53,324 nucleotides of DNA from a virus. A model generated the notes under the pieces. It made no database searches. It was not told where the DNA came from and saw only the letters and a list, made by a program, of their open reading frames with translations. Below, in pieces: positions 19,201 through 48,434 of this stretch (the first letter of the stretch is position 1; each line of letters begins with the position of its first letter). The stretch is taken from positions 1-53,324 of the IMG/VR virus record IMGVR_UViG_3300035670_000280; one strand, written 5' to 3'. Position numbers and translations under genes: made by a program.

Positions 19201-19422
19201 ATGAAATGTCCTGATTGTGGATGCCACCGCGTTGAGGTGGTAGTCACTACTTACAGTACCGATGAGCAGATTGTACGGAGGCGTCACTGCTTTGCGTGCG
19301 ACGCCAGGTGGTACACTCTGCAGGCCCAGGAGGTACTGCTTGACAAAAAAGATTTCACGTGGATAGAGCGTGTAGGAGGCCGGAAAGCCGTAAAACTGCA
19401 CACCAACGAGACCCTCGCTTAG
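19201..19422 (+). CDS. NrdR-like zinc-ribbon protein
   Basis: 73 aa from ATG at 19201. MKCPDCG ... VRRRHCFACDARWYTLQ is the CxxC/CxxC zinc ribbon of NrdR, including the Arg run before the second pair. The ATP-cone domain that lets NrdR sense dATP is missing. NrdR represses ribonucleotide reductase genes, so a ribbon-only phage version could relieve or mimic that control; this is inference. It lies between ThyX and the sigma factor and 11 bp before the latter. Confidence 0.7.
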   Translation: MKCPDCGCHRVEVVVTTYSTDEQIVRRRHCFACDARWYTLQAQEVLLDKKDFTWIERVGGRKAVKLHTNETLA

Positions 19423-19433
19423 TTACCTATCCC

Positions 19434-20324
19434 ATGTCCTACTCTGTTGATTCTTTTAAGTCCTATCTAACTGAAATAGCAAGATACCCTCTGCTTACGG
19501 TCGAGCAGGAGATCCAACTTTCACGACAAGTCGAAGCAGGTAGGCAGCTCAGTGGTAAGGAGGAGCTGAGTTCGGCTGAGCGGCGTACTGCACGCACTGC
19601 TGAAAGGGCTAAGCATAAGCTCATTAATTGCAACTTACGCTTAGTGGTAAGTGTGGCCAAACAATACACACGCCGTCTTAATGGCAGCAGCATGGAGCTT
19701 ATGGACCTCATCCAAGAGGGGGCTTTAGGGCTGCATAGGGCTGTAGAGCTATTTGATGGAGCTAAAGGCTATAAGTTTTCTACCTATGCTTATTGGTGGA
19801 TAAAACAAGCAATTACACGCGGGATTGATACCAAGGAGCGGCTTATTCGCGTTCCGCAGCACGGATTAGATACTGTTTATAGGGTGGTTAGGTTCCAGAA
19901 AGATTACATGCAGAGGCATGGACGGATGCCTACGCTACAGGTAATGGCAGAGGAAAACGATGTTAATCCTGAGTATTTAGAAATGCTTATGTCGCGTAAT
20001 TCGTGGCACAGGAGCTTGGACGCATTGGCGGTTGAAGACGGTGCTCCGATTATGGATTTGATACCGGATATAAGCGGTCTAGATGCCCAACAGGATCTTT
20101 TAGAAAAAGAAGAAAAGCAGGTAATGCTCAGCCTAGCGCTTGACTGCTTAAATGAAGCAGAACTTGACATGATCACTAAGCGGTATGGGCTTAAGGGCAG
20201 TCCCCCGATGTCATTATCCGGGATTGCAGCGGAAGCTGGTATTACCCGCGAAAGTATCCGCCAGCGCTTACTGCAAGCACACACAAAAATGCGCTTAAAA
20301 CTTAACACTGCACGTTACGTTTGA
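19434..20324 (+). CDS. RNA polymerase sigma-70 family factor (phage-encoded)
   Basis: 296 aa from ATG at 19434. Region 1.2 is visible (SFKSYLTEIARYPLLTVEQE), then regions 2.1-2.4 (NLRLVVSVAKQYTRR, LMDLIQEGALGLHRAVE, YKFSTYAYWWIKQAITRGID), region 3 (GRMPTLQVMAEENDV) and region 4 with its helix-turn-helix (LSGIAAEAGITRESIRQR). This resembles cyanobacterial group 1/2 sigma factors rather than the small T4-like gp55, so capture from a host is likely. It should direct host RNA polymerase to phage promoters, most simply those of the late minus-strand genes. It is 3 bp upstream of the dNMP kinase gene. Confidence 0.95.
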   Translation: MSYSVDSFKSYLTEIARYPLLTVEQEIQLSRQVEAGRQLSGKEELSSAERRTARTAERAKHKLINCNLRLVVSVAKQYTRRLNGSSMELMDLIQEGALGLHRAVELFDGAKGYKFSTYAYWWIKQAITRGIDTKERLIRVPQHGLDTVYRVVRFQKDYMQRHGRMPTLQVMAEENDVNPEYLEMLMSRNSWHRSLDALAVEDGAPIMDLIPDISGLDAQQDLLEKEEKQVMLSLALDCLNEAELDMITKRYGLKGSPPMSLSGIAAEAGITRESIRQRLLQAHTKMRLKLNTARYV

Positions 20325-25838: not shown

Positions 25839-28382
25839 TTAGCGGGTAATTGCGACAGATACAGTTGCAGAATCAACAAAGTTTGTTGTGTCGTAAGTGT
25901 AGACGCCAACAGAGCCAGTGGCATAGGAGTGTGGGCGGGCTGCAACAACGTCTACCGCGCTAACTAATGCTGCATAATTTGCGTCAGAAATAGCCGAGGT
26001 AAAGTTTACGGTGTATTGGCCAACAGTATTATCCGTAATACTACTCACATTGCCACTAGCTCTAATTGCGACGGTTCCGGTACCATTGAAGTTGACCCAG
26101 GCAACGGTCTTGAAGGATGACTGCCAAGACGGCGCCGATCCAGAGCCATTGCTGGTGAGCACCTGGCCGCTGGTGCCGTAGTTAGCGCCGGCGATGCCGA
26201 TTTGGCCGGAGGTCCCGATGCGCAGGCGTTCTGTTTCAGAACCAGCTACTTGGGTGCTGATCCGGAACTCATGATCGGTGCTGGTTCGTTGACCAAAGAT
26301 CCATTCAGCAGTGCTGCCGCCGTTGTAGAGGTGGAAGCGCGCTTGGCCGGCTGTAGATGGTGCAACGTAGACGTTACCGATTGAGGCGCTGGTTGTTGGC
26401 AGAGCGAAGTGAACAGGCGCTGCGGGGCTGGAGGTGTTGTGGCCAAGGAAGCCGGCTGAGGTGATGCGGAGGCGTTCGACACCATTAGGATAAAATACTA
26501 AGTTGGCATCAGTAGCGTTGCCGCTATTTTTTATATACGAAAGGCCGCCTAGTCCGTTTCGCAAAACCATTTCATAATTATCTGAAGCGTCTCGATAAAA
26601 GCCAGACTCGTTTGCAAGACCAATGCTGTCAAGACGTAGTTGCCAGCCAGCCGTTGTTGCAGGTGTTTTAACATGAAGAAAGCCACTCGGACTGCTCGTC
26701 CCAATCCCCACGCGGCCGGAGCTGTCGATGCGGAGGCGTTCATTATTTCCTGCTCCAAACTTAAGGTTAGATGAAGTATCACAAGCAATAAATCCATATT
26801 GCGTAGAAACTGGATTATTTGTAAACTGTAGCGCTCCAGCACCAGCTGTTGTATTAGTTCTTATCCGCAACGCATAGCCAAGGCCAGCCGTTGCGTCAGC
26901 GCTGGAGATGTCTAGCGCGTATCCAGGATCAATGTTGCCTATTCCAATGGCGCCGGTGGTGGTAACTGTCAAATAGTCATTCTCAACACCAGCCACCATC
27001 TTGGACAGTTTGAATGCGTGGTCGGTGATGGTCTTCTGGCCGAATAGCCACTCGGCCTGACCGCCGCCATTGAACAAGCGGTAGCGTGCTTGGCCGCTGT
27101 TGGCGATATAGATATTGCCGGAATCTGCATTGGGCGGGTTGCCTGATACCTGAAGGATTGTCCCTGGGGCGGTGGTGCCTAGGCCGACGTATCCGCCTGC
27201 GCCGTTGAGAATGAGGGAGCTTGGGTTGTGGGCGTCGTAGGCTTGAATAGAACCCACGTACGATGTAGGCCCTTGAAAATACCCAACCTGAAGCCTATAT
27301 CCAGAGTTTGCTGTTGCTTCGCCAACCGTAATTTGATTGGCAGCTGCAGGAGTGGATGGACTGGATGCTGGGACTACGGTAAAGCGGCTGTAGGGAGCGG
27401 TGGTGCCTAGGCCGAGGTTGCCAGAACCGTTGATCCTAAGTCGCTCAAATGTTCTTGCCGCAGCATCATTACCGGCTCCGTTACGACCAACGCCAACCGA
27501 TAGAAACTCACTTCCCCACGCTCCCCCATTGAAGCCAGCTACAACATCCGCAGTTCGTCGAGGTACATTATCAGCAGTCCCTTCAAAGGTTGAGTAGAGA
27601 GAAAAAGTAGCCCTACGTCCTTGCGCAGTGCTAGGTGCTGTAAGCTTCAGCGTCATTCCATCTGTTGTCCCGTCCGCGACAACATCTAGGCCAGCGCTCG
27701 GACTTATGGTGCCTATGCCAACACGACCACTTGTGTCAACAGTCAGATAATCAGTCTCCGACCCAGCAACGCTCCTGCTGAGCTTGAAGCTGTGGTCTGT
27801 GCTCGTTTTCTGGCCAAACAGCCACTCGGCTGTGCCGCCACCGTTGAACAAGTGAAAGCGAGCTTGACCGGCAACGCTTGGTGCGATACGGACGTTGCCA
27901 ATCGTTGCACTCGCCGCCGCTAGTGTGACATCAACGCTTGTACCTGGTGTTGCGGTGCCGACGCCCAGCTCACCAGCAGCGTCAATAAACACGCGGCCGG
28001 CACTATTGGTGGCCAAGCCAATCGTGTTGGTGCCCGCTAGGTAGAGCCCGTTAGCTGGCGCGGAGCTGCCCGTGGGTATCAATGCGGTGCCACGTACGCT
28101 GCCGGTGCTGGTAATCGCCCCAGAGCCCAGCGTGCCGCCGATACTGGCGTTGCCAGTGGTGCTGAGACCGGTCAGCGCATAGGTACTGGTCAGCTCAGCC
28201 CAGCTGCTGCCATTCCACTTCTGCCAGCGGTTGACCGAGCTGTTCCAGCGGATGGCGCCGGTGGGGATGTTGCTGCTGGTCGTGCCGTCAAACTGCAGCG
28301 CCAAGTCCGTGTCGCGGTCCTTCACCTCCGTAAGGAAGTTGGTATAGGTGCTGGTCAGCAGTGGGTTGGACCAGTTGGCCAT
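25839..28382 (-). CDS. Tail fibre protein with internal repeats
   Basis: 847 aa. The N terminus (WSNPLLTSTYTNFLTEVKDR) recalls virion-attachment domains. The body holds at least three copies of a module of about 75 aa: QARFHLFNGGGTAEWLFGQK, TDHSFKLSRSVAGSE, then GRVGIGT-SP; QARYRLFNGGGQAEWLFGQK; and QARFHLYNGGSTAEWIFGQR. Shorter GIGTxxP turns recur throughout. The C terminus (VAWVNFNGTGTVAIRASGNV onwards) is a separate tip domain. It probably trimerises and binds the host surface. Repeats can change number by recombination and so alter fibre length. It lies 3 bp after gene J. Confidence 0.85.
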   Translation of the reverse strand: MANWSNPLLTSTYTNFLTEVKDRDTDLALQFDGTTSSNIPTGAIRWNSSVNRWQKWNGSSWAELTSTYALTGLSTTGNASIGGTLGSGAITSTGSVRGTALIPTGSSAPANGLYLAGTNTIGLATNSAGRVFIDAAGELGVGTATPGTSVDVTLAAASATIGNVRIAPSVAGQARFHLFNGGGTAEWLFGQKTSTDHSFKLSRSVAGSETDYLTVDTSGRVGIGTISPSAGLDVVADGTTDGMTLKLTAPSTAQGRRATFSLYSTFEGTADNVPRRTADVVAGFNGGAWGSEFLSVGVGRNGAGNDAAARTFERLRINGSGNLGLGTTAPYSRFTVVPASSPSTPAAANQITVGEATANSGYRLQVGYFQGPTSYVGSIQAYDAHNPSSLILNGAGGYVGLGTTAPGTILQVSGNPPNADSGNIYIANSGQARYRLFNGGGQAEWLFGQKTITDHAFKLSKMVAGVENDYLTVTTTGAIGIGNIDPGYALDISSADATAGLGYALRIRTNTTAGAGALQFTNNPVSTQYGFIACDTSSNLKFGAGNNERLRIDSSGRVGIGTSSPSGFLHVKTPATTAGWQLRLDSIGLANESGFYRDASDNYEMVLRNGLGGLSYIKNSGNATDANLVFYPNGVERLRITSAGFLGHNTSSPAAPVHFALPTTSASIGNVYVAPSTAGQARFHLYNGGSTAEWIFGQRTSTDHEFRISTQVAGSETERLRIGTSGQIGIAGANYGTSGQVLTSNGSGSAPSWQSSFKTVAWVNFNGTGTVAIRASGNVSSITDNTVGQYTVNFTSAISDANYAALVSAVDVVAARPHSYATGSVGVYTYDTTNFVDSATVSVAITR

Positions 28383-28385
28383 GGT

Positions 28386-31300
28386 TTAGCTTCCTCGGGC
28401 TTGCCAGCTGAAGGGGCCGCTCACCCGGTTGCCCGAGGTATCGAACAGCAGCACCTTGAAGCTGGTTGGGTTGGGGGCGTCAACAAAATCATAAATCGCA
28501 ATTCGAGGGGTCGTCCCGCTCGGCGTTACGGCAATGCTTTCGATGTCCACGAAAGGCACGTTGAAGTTGACCGTTGTTCCGCCCGTGTCGGCAGCGTTAG
28601 CGGTGCCGTTACCCATGTCGTTCTTGATCTTCACGTCGAGGCGGACGTTGAGACCACTGAGCTGCAGCAGGTCGTCGCCGCCCACGCTGCTGAAGTCATA
28701 GCGGACCTTCACGTAGCGGAAGTTGGTAGCGTAGACCGACTCGGTGTTGGCGTAGTCGGTCCAAGCGCCCCCGGCTGTGGTTTTCACGCTGAGCATGGGG
28801 GTCACCGTCACAGAGCCCGCCACTGCCTGCCGTGTGAGTGTTGAGGTGATCTTGGTGCCGGCCAGCACGGTGCCGTAGTCGAACTCCTCGACATAGCTGC
28901 CGGTCGTCGTCGACGGCATGGCGTAGATGGTGAAGCCGGCGTTGACCTGATCCTGCGGGGTAGTCCAACCGCGTGAAGTGAAGTGCTGCTGCCAGGTCTC
29001 AGTCGGATCCACGGTGGCCAACAGGCCGCCGGCGTTGACCTTCAGGTTGGTGGAGGTGCCGGTGAAGGTGCTGTCAATGTTGGAGCGCAGCAGGTAGTCC
29101 GGCGGTTGGTTGACCTGCGCTGTCACACTGGCCGGTGTGCCGACGTTGCCGGCAGTGTCGATGCCCGCCAGCCAGTAGGTGTAGTTGCCTGAAATGGTCT
29201 CGAATACCGTGGTGAACAGGCCCTGCTTAGTGCCAACTGAGGTGCCGCCTGCGTAAGTTGCGCCACGGCGTAGCTCGTAGTAGACGATGGGCAGGGTTTG
29301 CGTGGAGTCGGTCCAGCGCAGCAGGACGTTGTTGTCGATGACCTGCTGGCTGATTGATGGTGCTGAGGGTGAAGTCACCACCACGTCTTGGAACTGCTGA
29401 GCGCCTTGATTACCAACAACGTCGAACGCGACGACCCAGAAGCGTTGCGTGCCGCCCCAATTCACCTTGAGGCTGTAAGCGGTGGACTTGATCTCGGCCA
29501 GCACCGTGGCTGACGCAAAGGTGCTGCCCCTGAGCACTCGGTAATAGGCCGTGTCGAGACTGCCCTGAACGGCGCCCCAAGTCAGCAGTACCTCTTCACC
29601 GGCAAACGTGTTGAGTACGGTGGGGGCTGGGGGCGCCTGTACCGTGGCCACGACGGAGCCGGGGGTGCCCAGATCGCCGTTGCTGTTGATGCCCGTCACC
29701 CAGAAGGTTTGGGCACCCAGCCAGCTTGCTTCAGTCTTGAACGTGGTGGATTGCACCCGTCCTAAGACTGTTGCGGTTGCATAGGTCGCGCCGCGTCTCA
29801 GTTCGTAGGCCGTAATGGGGAGCAGACTGCTGGCGCCACTCCAAACAAGGGTGAGCAGGTCACCGGCAAAGCTCGCCGTGATAGTCGGAGCAGTTACGGC
29901 AGTGATCGAGACAGTGCGCGGACCTGCGGCGCCGACATTGCCGGCCGTGTCCACCGCTGCGACGTAGAACGTGCGGTCTCCTGCCCACGCACCGTTGACG
30001 GTGAAGCTATTGGAGTTGATGATGCCAAGTGGTTGGCCGGCGGCAAAGCTGCTGCCGTAACGCACATCGTAGTAGGCAGTGGGTAGGGTGCCCTCAACGC
30101 TGTTCCACGACAGCACCACCTGAGCACCCGAAAAGGTGCTGCTGACAGTTGGCGCTGCTGCTGCTGCCGGGCTGACCGTGACTGTTGCGGCGGTGCCAAG
30201 GTTGCCGTTGGCATCAACAGCCTGGACGCTGAACGCCTGCGAACCCGTCCAGTCCACCTTCACGCTGAAGCTGGTGGTCTGGATCGTTGCGACTACCGTT
30301 GCCCCACGGCTGATTCGATAGAACCGGGTCTTCGTGGTGCCGTTGACTTCACCCCAGGTCAGCACCGCGTTCTGGCCTGCGTAGGCCACTGACACCGTGG
30401 GAGCCGGGGCTTGGGTCACGTTGACTACGACAGACCCTTCGGCGCTTTGGTTGCCTGCTAGGTCTACAGCCTTGACGTAGAAGGTTCGTGCGCCGTTCCA
30501 AGTAATCGGCAGCGAGGTGGTTGTGGTTTTGATTTCGCCAATCGCCCCAACGTTTGAGCGCACCACGTAAGCGGCGATGGAGTAGGTGCCGGTTGAAGCC
30601 GGCCAGCTCAGTGTCACTAGGTCGCCGGCCACGGTAGCGGTGACAGTCGGCGCAGTAGGCGGACTGATGGTGACGGTAGTGCTTGCCGCAGTAGCGCTGT
30701 AGATGTCCGATGTATCAATAGCGCGAATTGAATAGGTGAGGGTACCGGGGGCCAGCTGGCCAAGTTTGTAACTAGTTGCAGCGACCCTAGTAACGAATGA
30801 GGATGAGGCCCAGGTGCTGCCTTGGCGAATTTCGTACTCGCTTAAGTCGAGGTCCGCGATTGGGTTCCACGTCAACGTAACACCGATGTTCCCATCTAAG
30901 ACTGATGTAAAGCCGGTGACGTTGGCCGGAGGAGCGGTCTTGCCTAGTGCATTGATGCTGTCTGTTGCTGCGGTAGTGGACAGCTTCATTGCGGCGTTCA
31001 TTGAGAACACCTGTACCTCGAATAGGCCGGGAGTGATGTCTAGGATTTCGTAGTCATTGGTCAAGACATCAGCGATGCTCCAGTTGGCGTTGTCCTTACG
31101 CCACTTAACGCGGTACTGGGCGATACCTAGGACACTAGGCCATGAGGCAATTACCTTGGCGCGGACTTGGCTTTGGTATGTGTAGAGGGTTTCGCTGAGG
31201 TTTAAGGCGGTGGGGGCATCTGGTATTTCGTTTAGATCGGATACATCGCGCTGTGTTAAGGGGCGCCCCCGCTCGACGTAGGCGTATTTGCTTGAGTTAT

Positions 31301-33566
31301 AGGCTAGTGCGCTTATTTGATACTGTGCTTGGTCTTGCTCGGTGACGCTTAGGACACGCCATGTGGAGGTCTGAATACTGGCGTTTTCTAGGATCCAGAT
31401 GCTATTTGTGTTGGGGGCGGTAGGCAGCGCAGATGTGAGTGTGATTACCTTGCTAACGATTGTAGATACGTTTCGTGTTGCAACTGTTCCGTCTGGAAGA
31501 ATGACAGATAGAGTAGCGCCGGTTGCGCTAAGTCCTGTTGCGTCGTCAACTGTGACTGTGGTGGTAGTTGCGGCCGCGATGCGACCACCGCGACGGGCGC
31601 CAGCTCGCACGGGGTCACTGATCTCAATGATCTGGCCAGGACGCACCACCACACCCGCGTCGATGCTGGCGGTAAAGGTGACTACTTCGCCCTCATACTG
31701 CTCTGAGTAGAGCAGCCACTCACCGATACGCCCTGCCTGCGCTCTACTTGTACAGGCAAATGCACTAATCTCCGTAGTGATTGCTCCGTACTTGGCAATA
31801 GATGCCTGATCCTCTACTACCTCATAGGCTGTATCACGCAGCTCTAAGTCGATATAACTTACGACAGCTACGTTTGGACGGGTTTTTAGGCTGCTGCTTG
31901 AATAGGTGAATCCCTCTTCTGCGACGTTGGCAAGCGTGAATAGGTAAGCGGTATCGCCGGGCTTATCCTGGCTTAGGGTTAGTGCGCCTGCGCTCCAATA
32001 CGGCATAGCTCGAAATACCGAGCACATGTCATTGATGAGTTTGTAGGCTTCTTCTTGGGTTTGGATGTTTACGTTGCAAGAAAAGCGGGGTTCTTGGCCC
32101 CCGAAGCCATTGGGTACTAACTCCGCGCAGTATTGACTTGCGGAGTAGAAGGCCCACTTATCAAGCTGAGCGGCGTTGATATGGTTGCCGAAGCCGTAAC
32201 GAGTTGAGGTAAGTAGGTCGTAAAGGATCCAAGCGGGATCGCTACACCATTGGGCAGCTCCAAAGCTGCCGTTCCACATACCGGCGTAAATAAGACGACC
32301 GGTAGCGGAATCAACGGTCGCGTTTGATGGGATGCGGATTTTGATACCACGGATGAGGTAAGAGCGTGTAGGTATGGAGTTAAACTGCTCAGCATCAACG
32401 CGAAGAGCTACGAGGGCGCTGTTCGGGTACCGGAGCTTGGCATAGGTGAGTTCTGTGTAGCTGGCCCAGCTGAAGGCATTTGTGATTTTGGCGGAAGCAC
32501 CTCCAGGGGCATCCTGCTCTGAGCTGTCGCCTGTGATCCGCGTAACTTTAATGTTTACAGGCTTAGATCCGGTAAGAGGTACTAGGTAAGTGCGCTGGTA
32601 AAGGTCGGCGGTGCGCCCTCGTACAATTTCGTCGATGACTGTTGTGTAACCGCCGCCGGAATACTGCGTAGCGATTTGTAGCCTAAAAACGCTGCCTACA
32701 ATATCTCCTTGATCTGTAATGCGTTGTAGGGCGGGTACGTTAATGGTTACCCGTGCTGCATCGACAGTTGTATCTGTGATGGTGCGTACAACTGGGGTAG
32801 CTTGTAACACCGTGACGCCTACAGCTACTTCGTTCTCAACTGCATCTGTTGAGGGGATGTAGTTCTGGTCTTGTGTGCCGTTACGTGCCCATACAGTTAC
32901 GTTGGAGAAGTTGTAGGAACCGTCGGCATTCTGTAGGGGAGTATTGTTTAGGAAGATCGACTTATAGTTATCCTTCAGTCCCTCGATTTCGCCTTCACTA
33001 ATTAGGTCAATTAAACTGGCATATTGAGTGGAGTCAAGGGTGTCGGCGGCTTCAGTGGGGGTGTAGGTCTGACCGCCACCACTGCCTTTTGTCGGTTCTG
33101 GTCCGCCCGCGCCAGCGATGAGCCCGGTGCCGAGGCCGGCGTTATGGACGCGGAGGCCGCCGGCGATGAATGTGTGATGGCCCTCAACGGTGAGGTTGTA
33201 AACGGTATCGCAGCCGAGGGCTGTCCGCTCTACGATCGGCCGCAGATGCCCGTTTTCATCTACCAGGCAATCATCGCCGCCCAGCGTGCCAATCTCTACG
33301 AAAGCGTTGTATTGGTTAAGGACCCAATGGTTGGGGGTTGCGTCCAGTACGGCGCCGCCCCAAAGCCTGTAGCGAACTACCTCCTCGCCTTCATGAACGT
33401 GGACCTTGAGGATTTTGGCAGCATGGAGCTTGCCATGATCATCGAAGCTGAGTACCGCATCGCCTGGGTGCAGTTCGTCGATGCGGCGGTGGCCGTCTGG
33501 TGTGCGAACCAGCGTGTGGCCAAGAAAACAGCCACCTGCACCACCTGCACCGACGATCCGTGTCAT
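28386..33566 (-). CDS. Tail tip / host specificity protein J with N-terminal Hint domain
   Basis: 1726 aa. Residues 1-12 (MTRIVGAGGAGG) lead into a Hint domain, residues 13-142 (own entry). Then AGLGTGLIAGAGG and the normal J start (PTEAADTLDSTQYASLIDLI, SEGEIEGL) follow. Hub domains run to about residue 800, then about eight fibronectin-III-like repeats (W..V.G or GAQTFWV, DTAGN and NVG turns) to about 1500, and a beta-rich C terminus. In lambda, J forms the tail tip and binds the receptor. The ATG overlaps the stop of gene I (ATGA). Loss of residues 13-142 by splicing would restore a Gly-rich J N terminus like that of relatives. Confidence 0.93.
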   Translation of the reverse strand: MTRIVGAGGAGGCFLGHTLVRTPDGHRRIDELHPGDAVLSFDDHGKLHAAKILKVHVHEGEEVVRYRLWGGAVLDATPNHWVLNQYNAFVEIGTLGGDDCLVDENGHLRPIVERTALGCDTVYNLTVEGHHTFIAGGLRVHNAGLGTGLIAGAGGPEPTKGSGGGQTYTPTEAADTLDSTQYASLIDLISEGEIEGLKDNYKSIFLNNTPLQNADGSYNFSNVTVWARNGTQDQNYIPSTDAVENEVAVGVTVLQATPVVRTITDTTVDAARVTINVPALQRITDQGDIVGSVFRLQIATQYSGGGYTTVIDEIVRGRTADLYQRTYLVPLTGSKPVNIKVTRITGDSSEQDAPGGASAKITNAFSWASYTELTYAKLRYPNSALVALRVDAEQFNSIPTRSYLIRGIKIRIPSNATVDSATGRLIYAGMWNGSFGAAQWCSDPAWILYDLLTSTRYGFGNHINAAQLDKWAFYSASQYCAELVPNGFGGQEPRFSCNVNIQTQEEAYKLINDMCSVFRAMPYWSAGALTLSQDKPGDTAYLFTLANVAEEGFTYSSSSLKTRPNVAVVSYIDLELRDTAYEVVEDQASIAKYGAITTEISAFACTSRAQAGRIGEWLLYSEQYEGEVVTFTASIDAGVVVRPGQIIEISDPVRAGARRGGRIAAATTTTVTVDDATGLSATGATLSVILPDGTVATRNVSTIVSKVITLTSALPTAPNTNSIWILENASIQTSTWRVLSVTEQDQAQYQISALAYNSSKYAYVERGRPLTQRDVSDLNEIPDAPTALNLSETLYTYQSQVRAKVIASWPSVLGIAQYRVKWRKDNANWSIADVLTNDYEILDITPGLFEVQVFSMNAAMKLSTTAATDSINALGKTAPPANVTGFTSVLDGNIGVTLTWNPIADLDLSEYEIRQGSTWASSSFVTRVAATSYKLGQLAPGTLTYSIRAIDTSDIYSATAASTTVTISPPTAPTVTATVAGDLVTLSWPASTGTYSIAAYVVRSNVGAIGEIKTTTTSLPITWNGARTFYVKAVDLAGNQSAEGSVVVNVTQAPAPTVSVAYAGQNAVLTWGEVNGTTKTRFYRISRGATVVATIQTTSFSVKVDWTGSQAFSVQAVDANGNLGTAATVTVSPAAAAAPTVSSTFSGAQVVLSWNSVEGTLPTAYYDVRYGSSFAAGQPLGIINSNSFTVNGAWAGDRTFYVAAVDTAGNVGAAGPRTVSITAVTAPTITASFAGDLLTLVWSGASSLLPITAYELRRGATYATATVLGRVQSTTFKTEASWLGAQTFWVTGINSNGDLGTPGSVVATVQAPPAPTVLNTFAGEEVLLTWGAVQGSLDTAYYRVLRGSTFASATVLAEIKSTAYSLKVNWGGTQRFWVVAFDVVGNQGAQQFQDVVVTSPSAPSISQQVIDNNVLLRWTDSTQTLPIVYYELRRGATYAGGTSVGTKQGLFTTVFETISGNYTYWLAGIDTAGNVGTPASVTAQVNQPPDYLLRSNIDSTFTGTSTNLKVNAGGLLATVDPTETWQQHFTSRGWTTPQDQVNAGFTIYAMPSTTTGSYVEEFDYGTVLAGTKITSTLTRQAVAGSVTVTPMLSVKTTAGGAWTDYANTESVYATNFRYVKVRYDFSSVGGDDLLQLSGLNVRLDVKIKNDMGNGTANAADTGGTTVNFNVPFVDIESIAVTPSGTTPRIAIYDFVDAPNPTSFKVLLFDTSGNRVSGPFSWQARGS
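33141..33530 (-). other. Minimal Hint (intein-like, BIL type A) domain in J
   Basis: 130 residues, 13-142 of J. Block A starts with Cys13 (CFLGHTLVRTPDG), with RIDELHPGDAVLSF; block B has the TxxH motif (LDATPNHWVL); block F is VYNLTVEGHHTFIAGGLRV; block G ends His141-Asn142 (VHN). The next residue is Ala, not Cys, Ser or Thr, so standard splicing lacks its nucleophile; type A bacterial intein-like domains share this and can cleave or splice slowly. There is no homing endonuclease insert. All catalytic residues are present, so N- or C-terminal cleavage of J is expected. Confidence 0.85.
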
Positions 33567-34153
33567 ACCGTCACCTGTACCGTGTCGATGCCTGCAGAGA
33601 TCACTACAGAGCCCACCAGGGTTTCGCCATAGACAATAGGCACCGGTACCCCTTGTCTAGACGTATTTTGGATTCCACTAAAACTGTAGGACTTGCGGGG
33701 ATCTTTGGCTGTATCTACCGTGGTTTGCGTTGTCGGTATGACTGGTACAGGGGTAAGTAATTGGGATACGCCACCTAAGACTAGGCTCGCTCCTAGACCT
33801 CCAATAAGAGTTGCAATACCTGAACCTGCGGCAGCAATACCTAATGGAATAATAAAAAAGGACAAGGCAACTAACCCTATTCCGGCAAGGATGCGACCTG
33901 TGGCACCAGCACCGGCAACGACGGGAATGATCTTGATTTCTTGCGTACCAGAGGGGTTGTGGATTTCGTCGAAACTTAGGTCGTAGCCTCCTACGCTTAC
34001 ACGGTAGTGCTGGTCAGCCATGTGCTTTTCCAGCTGAGGGAAATTGGTCACTAGAAAACGCACCGCCTCGGCAGCGCTGCTTATTTCGGCTTCAAATTTG
34101 CGGCGCTTCAGAAACTTAGCTAAGCGCCCGTAGATGCGAATTGTACGCAGCAT
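33563..34153 (-). CDS. Tail assembly protein I
   Basis: 196 aa from ATG at 34153 ([20 protein letters not shown]); the open frame upstream is not part of the gene. It has the lambda gpI layout: N-terminal ubiquitin-like beta-grasp (IRIYGRLAKFL, AAEAVRFLVTNFPQLEKHMA, YRVSVGGYDLS), then a hydrophobic helical segment (ILAGIGLVALSFFIIPLGIA), and the C-terminal SYSFSGIQNTSRQGVPVPIVYGE motif. It is needed for tail tip assembly. TAATG overlap with K and ATGA overlap with J. Confidence 0.9.
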   Translation of the reverse strand: MLRTIRIYGRLAKFLKRRKFEAEISSAAEAVRFLVTNFPQLEKHMADQHYRVSVGGYDLSFDEIHNPSGTQEIKIIPVVAGAGATGRILAGIGLVALSFFIIPLGIAAAGSGIATLIGGLGASLVLGGVSQLLTPVPVIPTTQTTVDTAKDPRKSYSFSGIQNTSRQGVPVPIVYGETLVGSVVISAGIDTVQVTV

Positions 34154-34908
34154 TAGGTTAACCCAAGCCTTTCTGCATCGTAATGGCGGAGGCGGCGGCC
34201 TGTGCATTTCTGTAGCCAGCCCCCGTAGATATCGCGGCTGCTGAGGCGGCCTCGGATGTGATGCAGTACGAGCTGATCACCGATGTACACCCCGACGTGG
34301 TTGAGGCCAAGGCCGCTGATGCTCATCAGCACCGCGTCGCCGGGCTCCAACGGTTCCTCCTCTTCGTTCAGTTCTCGGAAGCCCGCGTCCTTCCAGTAGC
34401 GATCGAACAGAGGATCTGCCTCGAAGGCTTCAGGGGTAAGCGGACGCTCCCAATCTGGAAGATCTAAGCCGTTCTCGGCGTACCAATCCCGCGCCAGCGT
34501 CCAGCAATCGCTTAGTCCCCAGACCCACTCGCGGCCAATCAGCGGTGCTTTGTAGCCGGAAGGAAGCAACTCATCGCTCCACGCCTCGGTTTTTGGATTG
34601 ACGATCCACCAGGGGAGATCCGTGCGCTCAATGGCGAGAAGGTCGGCTTGGCTGGGGATCGGCGGTGTGACTGGATGGCTATGCACGACTGCTGTAATCT
34701 CACCAGCATCCTCGGCTGCGGCATAGTCCTGCGGATCGAGGATGAATTGTTCGGTGCCGGCAGCAAGGTTGCGGCAGGGCCAGTAGCGTTCGCGGCCTTT
34801 GACGACCACCACTAAGCCGCACGCCTCGCGCGGATCCTCTGCTTTTGCGTGCATGAGTGCAGCATCGCGCCAAGTAAGTGGTGTGGGATCCGTAGGTGAG
34901 GTGTTCAT
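34153..34908 (-). CDS. Tail assembly protein K: JAMM plus NlpC/P60
   Basis: 251 aa. N-terminal JAMM/Mov34 metalloprotease: H76-S-H78 in [10 protein letters not shown] with Ser86 and Asp89. C-terminal NlpC/P60: Cys135 in [13 protein letters not shown], His204 in [10 protein letters not shown]. In lambda the homologue is needed for tail tip assembly, and the NlpC part may trim peptidoglycan on entry. All catalytic residues are kept. It is coupled to gene I and follows L by 6 bp. Confidence 0.92.
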
Positions 34909-45275: not shown

Positions 45276-48200
45276 TCAGGTGCCGTAGCAGAAGGCGCCA
45301 GGCTGCTTGACGGCGAAATCAACGTCCTGGAGGGCGATGATGCGCACCGTGCCAGCGGTGGAGCCGGCGTAGGGATCTACGGTAAGATCGAGGCCGGACC
45401 ACATGCCCACGATGAACTGGCTGAAGTCTCCGAACAGGGCGTCGTTGCTCTGCAGCTGGTTGCTCACGATCACGGGGTAGCCGTTGATCTGGTCGTCGGC
45501 GTAGACGAACTGAGCAGTCGAGGTGGTGGATTTCTCAGTGCTCTTCAGAGCGCCACGGGCGGCGGCGTTGATGATGTAGCGCAGGGCGCCTGCATCAGCG
45601 TTAGCGCTCGCCACATCGGTCTCCATGCCGATGTACTCGGCAAAAGTACCGTAGGTGGTGATGGTCTGGCTGCCGATGCCGGTGGTGTTCACCAGGCCCA
45701 GGGGCTGATTGGTGCTGCCGGTGCCGTAGATGGCTGCGCGGTCCAGTTCCAGGGCGATGACCTTGGCGAGGTCAGAGCGGATCATCGACTCCACGTCAAT
45801 GCTGGACTGGAGCAGCAGACGGCGGCTGTAGTCCACGAAGGCGCCCACGGTCTTAGGCGTCATGTTCACCTGGTCGATAGCCTGCTGGCTCTCGGTGGGC
45901 GAACCGGACTCACCGACCCAATAGGCGGTGGCGGCAGAGGTTTGGCGGGGGATGCTGACGTTGCCCTGGAGGCCACTCAGCATGGTCACGCCGGCCTGCA
46001 TCATCGCCATGCGATTGCGCAGCAGGTCGATGAAGCTGCCGCTCAGCAGATCGGTGGAGACGAGGTTGCCACCGGCGGTGGAGGTGCCCACCACGAGGTC
46101 GCGGCGCAGCACTTCGTTCGGGATGACGATACCGTTGGAGGAGCGCTCGTACTTGGCAGCGGCGGCCTTACCAACTTCGATCTCGAAAGCAGCGGCTTCG
46201 CGGGCAGCGCGGTCGCCAGGGTTGACGAGGTAGTTAAGGGCGCGGACGAAGGAGAAGCTACGGGTCTCCTTGTCGGTCAGACCGAGGGAGGTGGAGTTGT
46301 CGTCGTGGATGCGGCCTTGGATTTCCACGCGGGTACGTCCCAGTTGAGTCAGCACGGCTTCACGAGCTTGGTCGATGGTGGCGTCGTCGTTGATCAGGCG
46401 CTCAGCCAGATCAGCACCGACTTGGTGTTGGTCGCACATGGCGCGGATGGTCGCAACCCGCTCACGCTCGGACTGCCGAGCGGCGGCTTCGACCTCCTGA
46501 ACATTGATGGTTTGTTCCATGGATGGAGGAGTTTGGGTGGAGTCAGGTCCGCGCTCGGCGGTCTGCTTAGTTCCAAGTGTAGGGGTCGATGCTTGGATTG
46601 TCTTTTCTGTTGTAAGTGGTTGGGGATCTGGATTGGTTTCTTGATGTGAACGTCCTAGGCCCACGGTTTGGTCGGCAGGGACGCTCACGGAGGAGACCTC
46701 CAGAACGTTCCATTTGACGACTTGCATATCGCCATTTTGTGCTTCACGCACGTCGTTAATTTCGTAAGCAAAGGATACGTTGCGGACGATACCGGCTTCG
46801 ATGTCTTGACGGCGCTTGTATTCTTCGGTCCCTTTTTCGGTGGTATTTGGGCTCCATTTTGTTTTGACGTAGAGGCGGCGGTCGCTGCCGAGCCAAGCTT
46901 TCTCTGCTACACCGAGTACGACATCACGGTTGTGGTTCCAGAGCCAGGGGCCGCCATCGTTCATGCGGGCTAGATCCATTGCGCCGTCGTCGTGCATCAG
47001 CACTTCACGGCCCCACCAGCGTTCGACCGGAGCCTCAGAGCTGAAGCTGAAGGTGAGGCCGGCGTCGGTGGACTCTTCTACGCGGAGGCCCTGCGGTGCT
47101 TCGCGCCTAAGCACCTCTTTATTGATGGCTTTGATGTCGAGGCGGTCCTGCATGGCTTTGCCGGTGGCGGGCTCGAAGGAGACGGGCGTGAAGTCGTGAT
47201 CGCTTAGCCACTTCTTGGCTTCGGCGGGAGTGAAGCGGGCGGCGTCGAAGCGGAGAGCCTGGAGTTTGAGGGGGTTGTCGCCTTTGATGCCGTAGATGGA
47301 GTCGATGCCTTGGGCGAAGTCGTTGTTTTTGCGGCGGAAACGGTCGAACTGCGCGGGATCGAGGAGGCGAGCGGCGTGTTCGTTGGGGTAAGGGCGCTGC
47401 TCGGCGGTGCGGTCGTCCTCACTATCGCTGGATGGTGCCTTGAGGGCGTCGATTTTGCGCAGCGTTGAAAACTTATGGCCTACGAGAGTTTCGGTTTCGG
47501 CCCAACCGTCCTGCTTAGGGCGGTAGATGCGGATGAGGGCGGCGGGGTCATCAGAAGAGGCGTCGATGCTGAAATCGCTGCCCGGAACGCCGAGTGTGCC
47601 AGTGCGCATGATGTGTTCAATGCGGCCCCGGGCGGTTCCGCCGCTGGACTGCCATGCAACAAAATCACCTTCACTAAGTTCGCCGGCGGCGGCACGCACG
47701 GAACCAGCAGCGGCACGAACGGCGTCGGGATCAGCCAGGGCACGTCCGTCGGAGGAGGCGGAGGCTTCGGTGCTGAGCAGTTGCTCGGGAATGATCCAGA
47801 ATTTGCAGGCGCCTTCTGGGGCGATGTCACCAGAGACGACTTCACAAGCGCGGGGACCGGCGTAGAAGATGCAGTTGGAGCACTGCATTCCTTCGTTGGC
47901 GAAGGGGCTAGCAGGCATGTAGTGAGCGCCGTGAGCACCGATACCTTGATCAAACTGGCCAAGTTCATCGACGATTTCCTCTAGGGCTTCGTATAGGGCG
48001 ACCTGAGAAGCCGTGAGGTCCGGGGTCAGTTCGCGTGCTTCAGTGGGCCGGGCGCTCATATCTGTAGTGCCTGCTGTGTTGTGGAGTCTATCGGAAGCGT
48101 TTTTAATCGTTTTAGCCTTAGCGGTGGCCCAGGTCTGCCCGGGATCGCCGCCCCAAGCGGCCCAAGCGACGCGACCGGGGGATGGGTAGGCGGGGCTGTC

Positions 48201-48434
48201 GGGTGAGTAGCCTTCGCCTTGCTTGTCTACCTCGTGGCGGGCGAACCAAGCGGACATCGTGATGACGGTCGAGGGGCTCAGCTCGTTACCGCTGAGGATT
48301 TGGGTGGCGCGGCGGGCAGCCACGCTGGTTCCGCCTGCACGGCCCTCGCGCTTCCAAGCACGGTAGCGCTCGGCCTCTTCCCGCATACCTTCGGTAGGCA
48401 TCAGGTCGATTTCGGTGCCGTTGATGTTGGCCAT
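45276..48434 (-). CDS. Prohead protease - major capsid protein fusion
   Basis: 1052 aa with four parts. Residues 1-115: IDLMPTEGMREEAERYRAWK, WAAWGGDPGQTWA, a domain often found near phage proteases. Residues 180-215: four Cys (185, 188, 197, 210) in a metal or Fe-S motif. Residues 250-330: a tudor-like HVA1 domain (EGDFVAWQSSGGTARGRIEH). Residues 450-600: U35-type prohead protease with His501 (WNHNRD) and Ser554 (RNVSFAYE). After a Gln/Thr-rich linker, a helical scaffold (640-710) and HK97-fold capsid (730-1052) follow. The protease should free the capsid and remove the scaffold. An internal ATG at 46520 could give capsid alone. Confidence 0.92.
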   Translation of the reverse strand: MANINGTEIDLMPTEGMREEAERYRAWKREGRAGGTSVAARRATQILSGNELSPSTVITMSAWFARHEVDKQGEGYSPDSPAYPSPGRVAWAAWGGDPGQTWATAKAKTIKNASDRLHNTAGTTDMSARPTEARELTPDLTASQVALYEALEEIVDELGQFDQGIGAHGAHYMPASPFANEGMQCSNCIFYAGPRACEVVSGDIAPEGACKFWIIPEQLLSTEASASSDGRALADPDAVRAAAGSVRAAAGELSEGDFVAWQSSGGTARGRIEHIMRTGTLGVPGSDFSIDASSDDPAALIRIYRPKQDGWAETETLVGHKFSTLRKIDALKAPSSDSEDDRTAEQRPYPNEHAARLLDPAQFDRFRRKNNDFAQGIDSIYGIKGDNPLKLQALRFDAARFTPAEAKKWLSDHDFTPVSFEPATGKAMQDRLDIKAINKEVLRREAPQGLRVEESTDAGLTFSFSSEAPVERWWGREVLMHDDGAMDLARMNDGGPWLWNHNRDVVLGVAEKAWLGSDRRLYVKTKWSPNTTEKGTEEYKRRQDIEAGIVRNVSFAYEINDVREAQNGDMQVVKWNVLEVSSVSVPADQTVGLGRSHQETNPDPQPLTTEKTIQASTPTLGTKQTAERGPDSTQTPPSMEQTINVQEVEAAARQSERERVATIRAMCDQHQVGADLAERLINDDATIDQAREAVLTQLGRTRVEIQGRIHDDNSTSLGLTDKETRSFSFVRALNYLVNPGDRAAREAAAFEIEVGKAAAAKYERSSNGIVIPNEVLRRDLVVGTSTAGGNLVSTDLLSGSFIDLLRNRMAMMQAGVTMLSGLQGNVSIPRQTSAATAYWVGESGSPTESQQAIDQVNMTPKTVGAFVDYSRRLLLQSSIDVESMIRSDLAKVIALELDRAAIYGTGSTNQPLGLVNTTGIGSQTITTYGTFAEYIGMETDVASANADAGALRYIINAAARGALKSTEKSTTSTAQFVYADDQINGYPVIVSNQLQSNDALFGDFSQFIVGMWSGLDLTVDPYAGSTAGTVRIIALQDVDFAVKQPGAFCYGT

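Follow-up and report, generated by a model that had tools for sequence, protein, structure and literature searches.

On the minus strand of the 53,324-nucleotide window (the whole stretch of viral DNA that was analysed, an IMG/VR virus record) lies an open reading frame of 1726 aa that reads MTRIVGAGGAGG, then CFLGHTLV...DATPNHWVL...VYNLTVEGHHTFIAGGLRVHN, a Hint domain that ends in RVHN, and then AGLGTGLIAGAGGPEPTKGSGGG. Outside the Hint domain the frame is gpJ, the tail-tip protein (FNIII-A_GpJ, Phage-tail_3, PHROG 31 and PHROG 1727, E<1e-250), and its upstream neighbours are I, K, L, M and the tape-measure gene, in the lambda order M-L-K-I-J. The features of this region are listed below.

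28386..33566, minus strand: gpJ tail-tip/central-fibre open reading frame, 1726 aa, with the Hint domain inside (domain and PHROG matches)
28386..33101, minus strand: gpJ hub and fibre body (FNIII-A, Phage-tail_3, Ig/FN3-like repeats)
33102..33140, minus strand: C-flank AGLGTGLIAGAGG, in which the leader motif occurs a second time; +1..+4 AG(L/I)G conserved while codons change synonymously
33141..33146, minus strand: His141-Asn142, C-terminal cleavage motif
33141..33530, minus strand: 130-aa Hint domain (residues 13-142) like those of the BIL (bacterial intein-like) kind, endonuclease-free
33168..33203, minus strand: block F VYNLTVEGHHTF (residues 122-133), which like BIL 2lwy has Asn at F:4
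33327..33338, minus strand: block B TPNH (TxxH), residues 77-80
33393..33401, minus strand: H56-x-H58 (Hint H44 and H46), family-invariant
33528..33530, minus strand: Cys13, the Cys1 of the Hint domain and putative N-S acyl shift nucleophile; Cys in 124/124, TGC/TGT codons
33531..33566, minus strand: N-terminal leader MTRIVGAGGAGG, residues 1-12, Gly at Hint -1
33563..34207, minus strand: gpI-like tail assembly protein, probable start 34153
34153..34908, minus strand: gpK-like protein, peptidase domains JAB (JAMM motif intact) and NlpC/P60

The N-terminal domain of gpI is ubiquitin-like, ends in PVVAGAG and has SAMP1 and MoaD as its top PDB matches. The BIL domain is thus adjoined by a ubiquitin-like protein and its likely peptidase, gpK (33563-34908 of the window); the pairing of ubiquitin-like gpI with the JAB peptidase gpK in lambdoid phages was noted by Iyer and others (PMC1779556). 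In lambda, the N-terminal region of gpJ is part of the hub and adjoins gpL and gpI; combined with gpI and the C-terminus of gpL, this region is the counterpart of a single hub protein of T5 (PMC10721106). Because this lambda trio corresponds to a single protein, the Hint domain sits at the junction of the gpL, gpI and gpJ parts. Elsewhere in the window, the tail fibre gene directly downstream of J (25839-28382, minus strand) holds a module in three similar copies, for example ATIGNVRIAPSVAGQARFHLFNGGGTAEWLFGQKTSTDH. A 1052-aa capsid gene (45276-48434, minus strand) matches the major head protein in its C-terminal part as well as head maturation protease families, and looks like a protease-capsid fusion.

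The initial annotation had placed a full set of Hint motifs in the Gly linker of J at 33141-33530. Indeed, Cys13 to Asn142 map exactly, in agreement with Pfam and NCBIfam matches and an AlphaFold2 model. The best Pfam match of the domain is PT-HINT (PF07591; E=4e-8, above cut-off), which has a single match in the whole 53 kb window; NCBIfam intein_Cterm also scored above cut-off and intein_Nterm slightly below it. When the family profile was compared with PDB sequences, the solved BIL domain 2lwy came first (E=3.9e-11). AlphaFold2, using a 44-sequence alignment, gave the Hint domain a pLDDT of ~92-98 per ten-residue block and the flanks less than 50; the insertion site is a Gly-rich leader that varies in length and is predicted to be disordered. 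With Foldseek against the PDB, BIL2 of the Tetrahymena BUBL1 locus (6y75/6tmm) ranked top (TM(target) 0.75-0.79), the Clostridium thermocellum BIL 2lwy reached a TM(target) of 0.86 at 1.7 A, and mini-inteins and Hedgehog ranked after both BILs. Motifs and predicted structure fit a complete, A-type BIL-like Hint domain at residues 13-142, closest to 2lwy and 6y75/6tmm. A J start downstream of the Hint domain was ruled out, as the C-flank in the window holds no in-frame ATG, GTG or TTG. Chance or artefact is likewise excluded, because far more than a hundred distinct J genes, on independent contigs, show this full arrangement.

Relatives of the domain were found in 146 viral contigs by a single-sequence scan, in 547 by an alignment scan and in at least 583 by a further scan. 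All J-Hints that could be read with enough sequence lie at the identical place and continue into gpJ. Their length is 130 residues in 124 of the 128 distinct J sequences and 131 in the other four, which fall in a second clade with an Oxalobacter prophage. Cys1 and the terminal His-Asn are kept in 128/128 distinct copies (His-Asn in 124/124 of the 130-aa set), and the -1 residue is Gly in all but one of the 128. The residue at +1 is Ala, or Gly in the Oxalobacter-type second clade. The domain had been described at the outset as endonuclease-free and type A intein-like, with Ala at +1; this holds, with Ala in 123/123 readable members of the 130-aa set and a fold that matches BILs.

The catalytic residues and those at +1..+4 are constant as amino acids while their codons vary synonymously (nearly all key residues, the +1 Ala included), and the median dN/dS is 0.13 for the Hint domain versus 0.25 for the J body. 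The Hint active site and the +1..+4 residues are therefore under constraint at the protein level. As TPNHWVL and NQ[YF]NAF served as patterns in several of the searches, the invariance at Hint residues 64-78 is partly ascertainment, which leaves Cys1, the other His, Asn130 and +1 unaffected. One further J-Hint (L043, at ~residue 58 of its open frame) has a 15-residue internal deletion just before the block F HHTF, possibly a decaying copy or an assembly error. No other clear decayed copy was seen among the sequences examined, and for that reason the active-site invariance could alternatively be read as retention for a useful function.

Set against the definition of A-type BILs (PMC7765530, PMC5874633), the J Hint has the fold with the Cys and blocks A/B, the His-Asn end, a +1 residue that, as often in this class, is other than Cys, Ser or Thr, and a site in a variable region. 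It resembles C. thermocellum BIL 2lwy in its Hint fold, Cys1, block F (VYN...HT) and His-Asn end, and it shares with 2lwy and A-type BILs at large the lack of C/S/T at +1, the lack of an endonuclease and insertion in a variable region. Unlike them, it occupies one fixed tail-tip site at a fixed 130 aa, is followed by a near-invariant AG(L/I)G at +1..+4, and shows allelic presence/absence and cassette exchange. The J Hint is a BIL domain by each structural feature that could be tested; its novelty lies in the site, the flank and the cassette behaviour. With Tetrahymena thermophila BIL2 (6y75, 6tmm) it has in common a His at the place of H48 (H58) and a ubiquitin-like partner in the locus, gpI, encoded by a separate gene. 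The equivalent of the BIL2 Zn ligand H48 is invariant, that of H125 is Asn, and an invariant H56 lies two residues upstream of H58. However, BIL2 is located between ubiquitin-like domains of a single polypeptide and conjugates them, whereas the J Hint lies within J; BUBL-type flanking Ub-like domains in one polypeptide are absent, since the Ub-like domain has a gene of its own, I.

Class 1 mini-inteins (gp41-1, Ssp DnaB, Mtu RecA) are similar in fold, motifs A/B/F/G and sporadic presence in the host gene, but the J Hint differs from them in having no +1 nucleophile, in lying outside a conserved functional motif and in carrying Asn rather than Asp at F:4. A class 1 intein was ruled out on the lack of Cys/Ser/Thr at +1 and the variable-linker site. 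Class 3 inteins have no N-terminal nucleophile and a block F Cys (WCT motif; PMC7664689); this class was rejected as well, as Cys1 is present in all J-Hints and the block F Cys is absent. The best Pfam match, above cut-off, is to the PT-HINT of polymorphic toxins (PF07591), yet no toxin domain is present and the downstream part is the phage hub protein J, so that a polymorphic toxin was also ruled out.

No J gene with a Hint domain was found among 50,697 deposited phage records (INPHARED), of which 1523 matched the J body; the Hint-type hits in that collection belong to inteins or to Hint domains of helicase, reductase or hypothetical genes. The closest model in the viral library, 'Putative gp62 [uncultured virus]', is 37% identical to the J Hint, and thus at least one relative is already public, although not described as such. 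A literature search, which did not extend to the original BIL papers of 2003-2004, found no J protein in which an intein or BIL is named. J-Hints are rare in host genomes: one of 399 in the cyanobacterial order of the L159 contig (that MAG contig itself) and clearly one of 399 in the order of Oxalobacter. A Flavobacterium MAG (L160, 6389-6790) encodes a non-phage protein that has a 44% identical Hint domain close to its C-terminus, with just 14 residues beyond the His-Asn. The window also carries a gene for a sigma-70 family RNA polymerase sigma factor (19359-20324, plus strand), and Synechococcus phage S-LBS1 has a sigma-factor gene too. The host is likely a freshwater Synechococcus, since the window's terminase is closest to that of S-LBS1 (46%), a sigma-factor gene is present and one close Hint relative is in a cyanobacterial MAG contig.

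The initial annotation had proposed a search of related J genes for alleles with and without the domain. Using a query of the J body only, with the Hint left out, both kinds of allele were recovered: among 51 distinct tips of the J tree, 24 have the Hint domain and 27 lack it. On this tree the Hint label needs at least 11 changes, four of them forced by strongly supported branches, against a mean of 17.1 when shuffled. In the five closest pairs of alleles with and without the domain, the DNA of the J body is 89-93% identical and that upstream 87-92%, and what sets the two apart is the Hint with AGLGLGxIA, enclosed by two GAGGGG-type repeats. For example, Hint-less L111 has the leader MSRIVGAGGGGGGGKGGGGG whereas L101 has MSRIVGAGGGG, the Hint domain and AGLGLGVIAGAGGGGGKGGGGG; their J-body DNA is 93% identical. 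No AGLG remnant was seen in the leaders of Hint-less J alleles, which makes AGLG part of the cassette. The leader motif (hydrophobic, then G-A/S-GG) stands on both Hint flanks in 106/125 cases.

Exchange of the domain is also evident. In 20 pairs the Hint is at least 8% more divergent than either flank; there are pairs with flanks 92-95% identical and the Hint 81%, with borders at the Hint edges. L224 and L208 share 90-100% identity until the Hint begins, drop to 65-85% across most of the domain and return to ~88-100% just past AGLG. A further 48 pairs have a Hint closer than both flanks, which could reflect transfer or stronger constraint. Since the divergence of Hint and flanks differs and the borders fall at the Hint edges, the domain travels as one piece from J gene to J gene: its 130 codons, together with AGLGxxIA, behave as a cassette that J genes gain, lose and exchange and whose borders in the poly-Gly tract are sharp. 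Most simply, the exchange would proceed by recombination between the GAGGGG/poly-Gly repeats that flank the Hint.

We therefore consider how such a cassette might be accommodated in a virion protein. As conserved motifs and the modelled fold suggest, the A-type BIL-like Hint cassette in the gpJ leader probably excises itself after translation. Cys13 would form a thioester with Gly12, and cyclisation of Asn142 would free Ala143 and let the Hint domain depart. The ends could then stay separate (cleavage), with J beginning at AGLG, or the freed amine of Ala143 could attack the Gly12 thioester and join them (non-canonical splicing); either outcome would yield a Gly-rich leader resembling that of a natural Hint-less J. 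That removal leaves a normal Gly-rich J start had been suggested from the window alone, and natural Hint-less alleles such as that of L111 support it: because they carry such leaders, the leader left after removal should be usable. For BILs mainly cleavage products have been reported, and some A-types splice by an alternative route (PMC7664689, PMC5874633). Canonical splicing would be impossible for the J Hint, because Ala or Gly at +1 provides no nucleophile and the trans-esterification step is blocked, while the retained Cys1, TxxH, block F His and His-Asn should permit both an acyl shift at the N-terminus and cyclisation of Asn. From intein mutants, C-terminal cleavage alone is not known to need either Cys1 or TxxH. 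As both are invariant in the family although that reaction should not call for them, the N-terminal reaction also appears to be under selection, which suggests that the N-terminal step matters too. Block F:4 is Asn in the J Hint whereas Asp is usual in inteins, and its chemistry may differ from theirs.

A conjugation device offers another, unlikely, reading, by analogy with Tetrahymena BIL2, which conjugates a ubiquitin-like domain to Lys through an isopeptide bond and is Zn-activated via H48/H125 (PMC8616854). Here a lysine on a tail-tip protein would receive the leader, or become joined to J, through the Cys13 thioester. The top Foldseek match is BIL2 from the BUBL1 polyubiquitin locus, the family-invariant H58 aligns with its Zn ligand H48, and the adjoining genes encode Ub-like gpI and the JAB peptidase gpK (a pairing described in PMC1779556). 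Together with the place of the Hint domain where the gpL, gpI and gpJ parts meet, this lets a role in covalent assembly be imagined. However, H125 is replaced by Asn, the leader to be transferred is of low complexity, varies in length and does not differ in kind from that of Hint-less J, close relatives of the phage lack the Hint, the gpI/gpK pairing is equally present in Hint-less phages, and the gpK JAMM motif is the same in both. Conjugation by BIL2 is ATP-free. Very unlikely is the fuller version in which the J Hint is an ATP-independent module that links the J leader, or by exchange gpI, to tail-tip lysines, with gpK trimming or reversing the link. If true, J-Hint conjugation would be a ubiquitin-like covalent assembly step inside a phage virion.

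The initial annotation had also raised a timer for tip assembly. As a maturation timer, C-terminal cleavage at Asn142 would set when J enters the tail tip. An intact C-terminal motif, the strongly conserved AG(L/I)G at +1..+4 and the position of the lambda gpJ N-terminal region in the hub beside gpL and gpI (PMC10721106) speak for such a role, but cleavage at the C-terminus alone leaves the invariance of Cys1 and TxxH unexplained, and a needed role found no support, with the Hint missing from J genes whose DNA is up to 93% identical and ~11 changes of label on the tree. An essential assembly timer is unlikely because sister phages do without the domain, and we consider the maturation timer quite improbable. 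It is hardly credible that the domain is inactive and retained to decorate the tip structurally; a globular insert could be accommodated in the linker, as the flanks are predicted to be disordered, yet all catalytic residues are invariant while their codons change synonymously.

To conclude, self-excision from the gpJ leader is the reading we prefer for this BIL domain. Such domains have reportedly been known since 2003, and to our knowledge their natural purpose is largely open. Here, the Hint domain moves as a cassette without a homing endonuclease, and with a length fixed at 130 aa and a conserved AG(L/I)G flank it may also serve as a compact tool for cleavage or ligation. Hundreds of phage J genes with and without the domain, in near-identical backgrounds and at one defined site, form a large natural series, so that a virion protein now offers a direct test of whether it is a selfish self-excising element or a working part.
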